From: an uncultured Pelagibacteraceae bacterium
GTDB lineage: Bacteria; Pseudomonadota; Alphaproteobacteria; Pelagibacterales; Pelagibacteraceae
Reading direction: 5' to 3'
Length of the DNA stretch: 64,000 bases
NCBI GenBank assembly: GCA_902540595.1
Contig: CACBNI010000006.1
Location: 16,509 to 80,508 of the forward strand
The position numbers and the translations under genes were made by a program. Shown in pieces: positions 10,774 to 14,245 of the stretch (position 1 is the stretch's first letter; each line of letters starts with the position of its first letter). Under the pieces are notes generated by a model that was not told the origin of the DNA, did not search any database, and saw only the letters and a list, made by a program, of their open reading frames with translations.

Positions 10774-11913
10774 ATGTTATTTGAGGCTTCGAGGGCGAAA
10801 GCCATTGAAAAATTAAATCATTTTGTGGAAAATAATCTTTCTGAATATTCTAAGTTAAGAAATTTTGATTTTGGGTCAGAGAATAGATCTAATGTATCCT
10901 GTCTATCCCCTTACATCACACACGGGATAATAAGCGAAAAAGAAATCATAAATAAATCTCTTAATAAATTTTCTTTTGCAAAAAATGAAAAGTTTATCCA
11001 AGAGGTTTTGTGGCGTACTTATTGGAAAGGTTGGCTTGAACTAAGACCTAATGTTTGGGATGATTATTTAATAAAGTTAAAAAAAATAAAAGAAGAATTA
11101 AAGGATAATAAAGAATATTTAAATGCCATCGAAGGTAAAACAAATATTGAGTGTTTTAATGTATGGGTAAATGAGCTTAAAGAAAATAATTATCTTCATA
11201 ACCATACCAGAATGTGGTTTGCAAGTATTTGGATTTTTACTCTAGAGTTACCATGGCAACTAGGTGCTGAGTTTTTTATGCAACATCTGTATGATGGAGA
11301 TGCTGCATCGAACACCCTAGGATGGAGGTGGGTCGCTGGAATTCAAACACAAGGTAAGCATTATTTAGCAAGCGAGTGGAATATTAAAAAATTTACCAAT
11401 AATAGATTTCAAAATATAAAATTAAATGAAAACGCTCCTCCAAAAAACTCTGAAAGATCTTACTCGGTTATAAATCAAGAATTTAGCAACCCTCAAGACA
11501 TTAAGGAAAAAAATCTTATAATTTTTGAAAATAATCTCTCATTTGAAATCACTGACTTTAACAAAAATTTTTTTAAAAAAATTTATATAGTTTCTAATAA
11601 AAATGAAAATAGATCTATCAAGCTCAGTGAAAGATTAGTGAAATTTAAGTCTCTTTTAGTGGAAGACCAAAAGCAAAGGCTAAAAGATAAAAAAATTGAC
11701 TCTGAGGTAATTAATATTAATGAAATTAACAATATTGAAAATTGCTACGGATTGTATCCAGCTGTTGGAGAAAATTTAGATTATCTAAATTCTAATAATT
11801 TAAAGATAGAATTTTTATACAGAGATCTTGATCGAATTTCTTGGCAATACTGTAATAAAGGGTTCTTTAATTTTAAAAATTATATTCCAAAAATAATTTC
11901 AACTTTCAGCTAA
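10774..11913 (+). CDS. Photolyase-family protein with the FAD domain first (apparent circular permutation)
   Basis: This is a 379-residue protein. Residues 1-220 are a photolyase/cryptochrome FAD-binding domain: SCLSPYITHGIIS, EVLWRTYWKGWL, NHTRMWFASIWIF and HLYDGDAASNTLGWRWVAG. By comparison with E. coli photolyase these include the Asp-Gly-Asp motif, the FAD-facing Asn and the electron-transfer Trp equivalent to Trp382. Ordinary photolyases have an alpha/beta antenna domain before this; here the protein starts directly with the FAD domain. Residues 247-365 instead form an alpha/beta stretch (LIIFENNLSFEI, KIYIVSN, FKSLLVEDQKQRLKDKKIDSEVI, IEFLYRDLDR) that reads like the missing antenna domain. 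Light-driven DNA repair or a related flavin photochemistry is likely; the substrate is unknown. Confidence 0.85.
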   Translation: MLFEASRAKAIEKLNHFVENNLSEYSKLRNFDFGSENRSNVSCLSPYITHGIISEKEIINKSLNKFSFAKNEKFIQEVLWRTYWKGWLELRPNVWDDYLIKLKKIKEELKDNKEYLNAIEGKTNIECFNVWVNELKENNYLHNHTRMWFASIWIFTLELPWQLGAEFFMQHLYDGDAASNTLGWRWVAGIQTQGKHYLASEWNIKKFTNNRFQNIKLNENAPPKNSERSYSVINQEFSNPQDIKEKNLIIFENNLSFEITDFNKNFFKKIYIVSNKNENRSIKLSERLVKFKSLLVEDQKQRLKDKKIDSEVININEINNIENCYGLYPAVGENLDYLNSNNLKIEFLYRDLDRISWQYCNKGFFNFKNYIPKIISTFS

Positions 11914-12219: not shown

Positions 12220-12636
12220 TTAACCAATCAAATAGAAGATAACAAGATATCTACTTACTTTTCCAATTGCTACTAAAACAATAAAATCTAAAAATTTAAC
12301 TCTCAATAAACCTGCAATTAAAGTTAACGGATCACCTAAAACAGGGACCCAAGCAAATAATAAAGACCATTTGCCAAACTTTCTAAACCATTTTGATGAT
12401 TTTTCTATTTGTGTTTCTTGAAATGGAAACCATTTTTTTGAACTAAGATTTCTTGAGTAAAATCCTAAAGCCCAATTAACAACAGATCCTAAAACATTTC
12501 CAAAGCTTGCAACGATTAACAATAATAAATTGTCATAATTTGATGTTACAATTAACCCTGCCAATGTAAGTTCGGAAGAAAATGGTAAAATAGTTGCTGC
12601 TAAAAAAGATATTACGAATAACGATAAGTAGATCAC
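12220..12636 (-). CDS. YqaA family membrane protein
   Basis: This 138-residue membrane protein contains [16 protein letters not shown] near the N terminus and the re-entrant segment [25 protein letters not shown]. These are the hallmarks of YqaA, a short relative of the DedA/SNARE-associated family that may move lipids or ions. The start is GTG at 12636, whose GTGA overlaps the stop of the upstream DUF2256 gene. It lies in the photolyase cluster; the functional link is unknown. Confidence 0.87.
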
Positions 12637-12755
12637 TTAGAGCACTTTTTTGAACAATACTTTACCTTATGCCAATTAAGCCTCCATTTTTTTCGCCATG
12701 TAAAAGGTCTTTTGCAAACAGGACAAGTTTTAGACGGCAAATTTTCTTTTTTCAT
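12633..12755 (-). CDS. DUF2256 small zinc-ribbon-like protein
   Basis: Missing from the ORF track (40 residues). The reverse strand from the ATG at 12755 reads [20 protein letters not shown], then [20 protein letters not shown]. The C-x2-C ... C-x3-C pattern with R-P-F-x-W-R-K-K-W matches DUF2256, a tiny cysteine-rich family often found next to cryptochrome/photolyase-related genes. The four Cys suggest zinc binding. Its start overlaps the photolyase-related stop by one base and its stop overlaps the yqaA start (GTGA), so all three genes are coupled. Confidence 0.88.
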
Positions 12756-14245
12756 TAAATAGTATTTTGTCTAATAAATTTATCAGCCTCTGAAAGAATT
12801 AGTTTTTTTCTTTCATCTTTCATTTTATCAAAGATACGAACCATCATTGATAAACGAGGATTTTTCAAAAAAAATTTTCTATTTCTATCTATAAATCTCC
12901 AATAAAGTCCGTCCATAGTATTACACCACTCTCCTTTTTTAAAATCCATCATTTTCATAAAATATGCGGATCCACATATATAAGGTTTGGTTGCAAAAAT
13001 ACCTCCATCGCTAAACAGTCCCATTCCATAAACGTTTGGAACCATCACCCAGTCAGATGAATCGACAAACATTTCCATAAACCATTTATAAACAATGGTA
13101 GGCTTAATCTCACACAAGTTCATAATATTAGATAAGATCATTAATCTTTCGATATGATGTGACCAACCATAATCGACTGCATTCTTAATTGCATAGTCTA
13201 ATGGTGGAAGGCCAGTATTTCCTTCGTACCAAGAGTTTTTCATTTTTCTATTTTGTTTAAAGAAATTTCTAGTTTCCATTTCTTTAGAATAACCCTGATA
13301 AATACCTCTCATAAACTCCCTCCAACCAATTACCTGACGGATATAACCTTCCAAAGAATTCATTCTTATTTTATTTTTTTTATGAAAATCTAAAACTTTG
13401 TGAATTATTAATTCAGGTGTTATTAGCCCAAGGTTAATATATGGACTTAAAGCACTGTGAAAAAGAATGTTATCTTTTTGATCTACAGCATCCTCATAGT
13501 CACCAAATAAGTTTGATTTTTCTTTAATAAAAAAATTTAAAAGTTTGACTACATCATCATATTCTGTTGCAAACCAAAAATGATCTGTGCTACCTGGATG
13601 GTCTTTAAACAATTTTTCAATAATAGGTTTCAATTTTTTTGTGTGACTTGTTTCATTAATTTTGGGCAATTTTGGTATAGAAATATCTTTAGGTAATTTA
13701 TTTCTATTATCTTCATCAAAGCTCCACTTATCACCAATTGGATTGCCATCTGGTCCCATTAGTATTCCTGATTTTTTTCTTACCTCTTTGTAAAAAGTTG
13801 CCATAAATGGTTTTTTTGAGTTTCCTAAATATTTTTTAAATTCTTCACGAGAATTAAGAAACATTGGTGTTTGAATGATATTCCATTCAATCTTCTCTTT
13901 TTTAAAAAATAAAGAAATCTTTTGTTCAAAAGGTTTATCTTCTATCTCGAAGCTAGATACTGCCTTGATTTTTTTTTGGGCAATGATTTTTTTTAATTTT
14001 TTTAAATAATCTTCACTAAATTCTTTGTCTTCAATTTTTGAATATTCTAATTTAAATTTATTTTTCTTAAGACTATCTGCGTAGGATCGCATAGAAGATA
14101 AAAACAAAAGAATTTTTTGCTTATGGTGTTTTTCATAGGTACATAAACCTTTATCTTCTGCCATAAAGAAAGTATGGTCTTTTTTGAAGCGGTCGATGTA
14201 TTTTGTTGGAAATAATTGATTACCAAGTATAAAAAATAACTTCAT
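12755..14245 (-). CDS. Cryptochrome/photolyase-related protein (DPRP/CryPro-like family)
   Basis: This 496-residue protein starts with an antenna-type alpha/beta domain ([17 protein letters not shown]). The FAD-binding helical domain follows: [53 protein letters not shown] and [20 protein letters not shown]. This matches the deoxyribodipyrimidine photolyase-related family, which includes prokaryotic (6-4) photolyases. From memory those carry a [4Fe-4S] cluster held by four Cys including a CxxC. Here the matching stretch reads [18 protein letters not shown] with no CxxC, and the earlier ligand region reads TGLPPLDYA, so the cluster is probably absent. It is the first gene of a coupled trio with DUF2256 and yqaA. 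Confidence 0.93.

Follow-up and report, generated by a model that had tools for sequence, protein, structure and literature searches.

A probable SAR11 member of the NewPHL/SPL photolyase class with the FAD domain first and a probable displaced alpha/beta domain last

In canonical class I photolyases the PF00875 domain lies N-terminal to the PF03441 domain. This order is not found in one ORF of the window, the 64,000-nucleotide stretch of DNA from an uncultured Pelagibacteraceae bacterium analyzed here, in which the FAD domain comes first and is followed by a second, alpha/beta domain (Table 1). The question raised by this locus is whether the second domain corresponds to the alpha/beta domain that canonical photolyases carry first, and what a protein built in this way would do in SAR11, which is among the most abundant bacteria of sunlit ocean water. 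We favor, with a probability of about 85%, a NewPHL-class photolyase with a displaced C-terminal alpha/beta domain, carrying out light-driven repair of cyclobutane pyrimidine dimers (CPDs) in single-stranded DNA.

The only Pfam domain detected in the ORF is FAD_binding_7 (PF03441, E 4.1e-17), and the same search found no domain in residues 239-379. Residues 7-197 align with residues 204-395 of Escherichia coli photolyase (1dnp, E 2e-16); therefore the protein has no antenna domain ahead of the FAD domain. A profile-profile comparison with the canonical catalytic domain gave P 2.8e-35. These matches bear out the initial annotation, which had placed a FAD domain in residues 1-220. The match stops around residue 198, and no counterpart was detected of the canonical FAD-domain end (about 75 residues, E. 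coli 396-471). A circular permutation had also been proposed. The reversed domain order that it implied is supported, but the term does not hold in its strict sense, since the domains are swapped whole and the canonical FAD-domain end is missing. Strictly, the arrangement is a domain-order inversion.

Table 1. Features of the FAD-first photolyase ORF, with positions in the window
Feature	Position	Strand	Remarks
NewPHL-type photolyase, FAD domain first, alpha/beta domain last	10774..11913	+	379 aa
Catalytic FAD domain	10774..11433	+	residues ~1-220; PF03441 at 74-198
E77, W80, R81 = E. coli E274, W277, R278 (CPD and flavin pocket)	11002..11016	+	invariant in 140/140 fused homologues
H142-N143-H144-T145-R146-M147 = E. 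coli HNRLRM 340-345	11197..11214	+	R342 replaced by His
W161 = E. coli W359, second Trp of the electron-transfer chain	11254..11256	+	
DGDAASNTLGWRW: D174, D176, N180 (flavin N5 residue), W184 (= W382, first Trp), W186 (= W384)	11293..11331	+	
Variable linker	11434..11511	+	residues ~221-246
C-terminal alpha/beta domain (Z-domain in the literature)	11512..11868	+	residues 247-365; predicted photolyase N-terminal-like fold
Conserved C-terminal motif D353-x3-W357-x5-GFF-x-FK-x2-IP	11830..11889	+	residues 353-372

The FAD and active-site residues mapped onto the ORF (Y25, R29, E77, W80, R81, N143, R146, M147, W161, D174, D176, N180, W184 and W186) are invariant or near-invariant across 140 fused homologues. 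The DGD motif (residues 174-176), the Asn (N180) and the Trp positions (W161, W184 and W186) are intact, as had been stated from the sequence. At the position of E. coli R342, His is found in 139/140 fused homologues and in 14/14 split, Deinococcus and Persicobacter proteins, while Arg is present in 24/24 canonical ones; among the proteins compared, this replacement is a simple sequence marker of the FAD-first group. The third Trp of the electron-transfer chain (E. coli W306) is missing; almost all fused homologues carry E, D, K or A at this position. Residue mapping found no Fe-S cysteine cluster in the SAR11 protein.

The whole layout is kept in 80 SAR11 loci from named records, at 79-87% identity, and a class-wide search recovered up to 60% identity in another genus of the same family. 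In a plasmid search, other Alphaproteobacteria (Asticcacaulis, Ruegeria, Novosphingobium, Niveispirillum and Peteryoungia) showed the layout across 98-99% of the length with 31-35% identity. Among the 299 genomes surveyed in the phylum, proteins with both domains in full were found in Alphaproteobacteria only, and past this form the matches weakened sharply (E from 3e-120 to 2.5e-44). No relatives were found in viral contigs, and phage matches were limited to the FAD part. Differences at codon positions 1, 2 and 3 were 0.12, 0.03 and 0.39 in the FAD part and 0.17, 0.10 and 0.34 in the C-terminal part; both parts are under purifying selection. An assembly artefact or a chance fusion is ruled out by the conservation of the layout in independent records.

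Judged from its predicted fold and from profile comparisons, the C-terminal domain is most likely a photolyase alpha/beta domain that has changed places with the FAD domain. Alternatively, though this is unlikely on the evidence that follows, the FAD domain would be fused to an unrelated alpha/beta domain of Rossmann-like or USP-like type. The full-length AlphaFold model has strands at residues 247-251, 269-273, 310-313, 324-327 and 346-348 and a helix at 286-305, where the initial annotation had read alternating strands and helices in residues 247-365; the alignment used for this model held close SAR11 relatives only, and pLDDT was 30-50 over most of the FAD domain. Folded alone with 80 SAR11 relatives, the domain reached pLDDT 83.8 and pTM 0.77, with elements in the order b-b-a-b-a-b-a-b-a-a. 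This predicted order resembles the one that is read off the alignment of the canonical N-terminal domain.

In a Foldseek search of the PDB with the model of the domain folded alone, the top TM-scores among the matches listed belonged to photolyases, with CryB at 0.57 and 0.59, the S. elongatus 6-4 photolyase at 0.53 and PhrB at 0.48-0.50, against at most 0.48 for non-photolyase folds. Photolyase FAD domains are all-helical, and thus the part matched must be the alpha/beta domain. The E-values were weak: none was below 0.001, the best (6.5e-3) was that of a non-photolyase, and photolyases fell at 0.02-0.2. Rossmann-like, methyltransferase, SDR and USP folds were also listed, as might be expected of an unrelated domain. 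The structural match to a photolyase domain that had been proposed as a check was obtained by TM-score, best for CryB, but not by E-value. A BFVD search with the C-terminal model gave nothing below 0.001, with a fowlpox 'hypothetical photolyase' at rank 4.

Direct sequence comparison also leaves room for an unrelated domain. The C-terminal domain alone misses PF00875, a match to which had been proposed as a check of the permutation. With hhalign it did not significantly match the canonical N-terminal profiles (P 0.05-0.07) or the DPRP N-terminal profiles. However, hhalign likewise fails to link the canonical N-terminal domains to those of DPRP, a relationship that is accepted, and therefore this negative result carries little weight. 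By eye, the conserved motif at residues 353-372 may pair with the canonical G-x-PY-x-VFTPFWK.

A bridge between the two domains is provided by relatives of the same FAD clade, which have a clear PF00875-like domain at the same place. In two fused Deinococcus FAD-first proteins (L165 and L197) the C-terminal part matches PF00875 (E 7e-4 and 1e-3), and in Deinococcus QL22 a separate second gene does so at E 2e-4, all of these matches falling short of the Pfam cut-off. Directly 3' of each of eight FAD-only genes from Alphaproteobacteria (L131-L138) lies a reading frame for the same kind of domain, about 131-153 aa long. A profile of these second domains, from Deinococcus and split relatives, matched the canonical N-terminal profile end to end (P 8e-9 local, 2e-10 global). 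The SAR11/alphaproteobacterial C-terminal profile in turn showed a moderate match to the bridging domains (probability 53-55%, P about 1e-4), and it placed three Deinococcus domains at ranks 1-3, above 346 unrelated ORFs. Taken singly, most of the split alphaproteobacterial second domains did not rise above unrelated ORFs. The bridge and the TM-scores argue against an unrelated domain and sustain the initial view that the C-terminal domain resembles the missing N-terminal one in swapped order. The Deinococcus and split relatives thus support that the 'atypical' C-terminal domain is a displaced photolyase alpha/beta domain, an identity relevant to the question whether NewPHLs represent an ancestral or a derived form. 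In the two-gene FAD-first photolyases (the eight pairs above and QL22, L199:496-1784), the stop and start of the gene pair often overlap; a C-x2-C...C cluster is present in some of them and absent in others.

In an unrooted maximum-likelihood tree of 65 FAD domains, in which the canonical sample comprised 24 class I-like proteins only, a 100/100 branch separated the fused NewPHL-like, split, Deinococcus and Persicobacter proteins from the canonical ones. The fused Deinococcus proteins were nested among the split ones, and thus fusion or splitting occurred more than once. As a tentative scenario, with the odds somewhat against it, all FAD-first photolyases may descend from one inversion via a two-gene operon, with the FAD gene followed by the antenna-domain gene, re-fused more than once. 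If so, the swap arose by gene splitting and refusion and not by direct circular permutation, and the split operons encode two-subunit photolyases.

With the order, residues, predicted fold and relatives described above, and with substrate and chemistry carried over from characterized homologues and from what is established for photolyases, the function is most likely light-driven CPD repair in single-stranded DNA. FAD would sit in the N-terminal domain, in the pocket usual for photolyases. On excitation by blue or UV-A light, reduced FADH- would donate an electron to a pyrimidine dimer lying against W80/W186 and E77, thereby splitting the dimer, and a two-tryptophan chain (W184 and W161) would re-reduce the flavin. 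The C-terminal domain would be a shortened and diverged photolyase alpha/beta domain that now follows the catalytic one. It probably lies against the FAD domain, closes the pocket and substitutes for the lost canonical FAD-domain end; a strong light antenna is not the role proposed. Emmerich et al. 2020 reportedly described the C-terminal domain of NewPHLs as closing off the FAD site, and NewPHLs as taking the place of DASH proteins; the pocket closure proposed here follows this account. The ORF scores 62.5 bits with the DASH cryptochrome model TIGR02765, against a curated cut-off of 317. No DASH cryptochrome above this cut-off was found in 278 Alphaproteobacteria, so that the single-strand repair role would be otherwise unfilled there, in agreement with the replacement just mentioned. 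The protein would be a third SAR11 photolyase besides the canonical and DPRP-type ones, probably acting on single-stranded DNA.

A cryptochrome-like light sensor, which would keep the FAD domain and signal through the C-terminal domain with no DNA repair, is distinctly unlikely. A canonical and a DPRP-type photolyase are already present in the same genome, and some of the neighboring genes in other Alphaproteobacteria encode regulators, both of which would suit a sensor. However, the lesion-pocket residues E77, W80, N143, M147 and W186 show little or no variation in 140 homologues, a constraint not called for in a sensor under relaxed selection, the Pfam search found no signalling domain in the ORF, and DNA repair by characterized homologues is described in PMC9426592 and PMC13274461. 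Least likely of all are (6-4) photoproducts as substrate in place of CPDs: related FAD-first cyanobacterial Phr4/Phr5 were proposed as (6-4) photolyases owing to their Fe-S cysteines (PMC9426592) and R342 is replaced by His here, but the SAR11 protein has no such cysteine cluster, CPD repair is reported for NewPHLs in PMC13274461, and a photolyase of the DPRP type, to which (6-4) repair in prokaryotes usually falls, is encoded close by. Neither the PF04244 N-terminal domain nor the four Fe-S cysteines of the FeS-BCP/DPRP (6-4) photolyases were found in the ORF.

The DPRP-type photolyase gene lies at 12755-14245 (-) of the window. Its product shows a 10-residue alignment gap at the loop of A. 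fabrum PhrB with the CxxC pair of Fe-S ligands; with this loop missing, the Fe-S cluster is probably absent, as reported for most picocyanobacterial Phr2. A 40-aa DUF2256 ORF (PF10013, E 7e-19) at 12633-12755 (-) overlaps the end of the DPRP photolyase gene on one side and the start of a VTT-domain gene (12220-12636) on the other, forming a compact three-gene run. In four annotated loci of other Alphaproteobacteria (L160-L163), an AarF/UbiB-family kinase gene is found near the NewPHL gene in three and a DUF3429 gene beside it in two.

The layout is not novel. Inverted photolyases were reportedly published as NewPHL/SPL by Emmerich et al. 2020 (doi 10.1093/nar/gkaa1147) and Xu et al. 2021 (doi 10.1093/molbev/msab191); the layout is thus already known, and the SAR11 protein adds one more member. 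PMC13274461 describes NewPHLs as having this same layout, as found in Alphaproteobacteria and as first described in 2020. The ORF most likely encodes a SAR11 NewPHL/SPL photolyase, likened to the named NewPHLs by their descriptions and not by alignment. With those of Dinoroseobacter shibae (A8LJA9) and M. mesophilicum (M7YZC8) it shares the inverted order, seen by Pfam and AlphaFold, and a short C-terminal Z-domain, supported by the predicted fold and the bridge homology, the direct sequence match not being significant. Also shared are the absence of Fe-S cysteines, the class Alphaproteobacteria, to which the homologues belong too, and the Trp dyad, with W184 and W161 present and no Trp at the W306 position; the D. 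shibae NewPHL is described as having 'a mere Trp dyad' (PMC8948257). It differs from them in belonging to a SAR11 lineage with an AT-rich, streamlined genome and in being known from sequence alone.

Prochlorococcus Phr7, composed of an N-terminal FAD domain and a C-terminal Z-domain and devoid of Fe-S cluster cysteines (PMC9426592), is alike by description and also comes from an abundant marine plankton bacterium, but it is cyanobacterial. Synechococcus phr4/phr5 and Cyanobium phr6, which are reversed-order photolyases (PMC9426592), share the order, as do the split and Deinococcus fused forms. However, these are often encoded by two genes and their second domain is nearer to the canonical one; a Cys cluster occurs in the cyanobacterial and several other reversed-order forms, while the SAR11 protein has none. 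Finally, the class I CPD photolyase E. coli PhrB (1dnp) has in common with the SAR11 protein the FAD pocket and most active-site residues, but differs from it in having the antenna domain first, a third Trp, Arg at position 342 and extra C-terminal helices.
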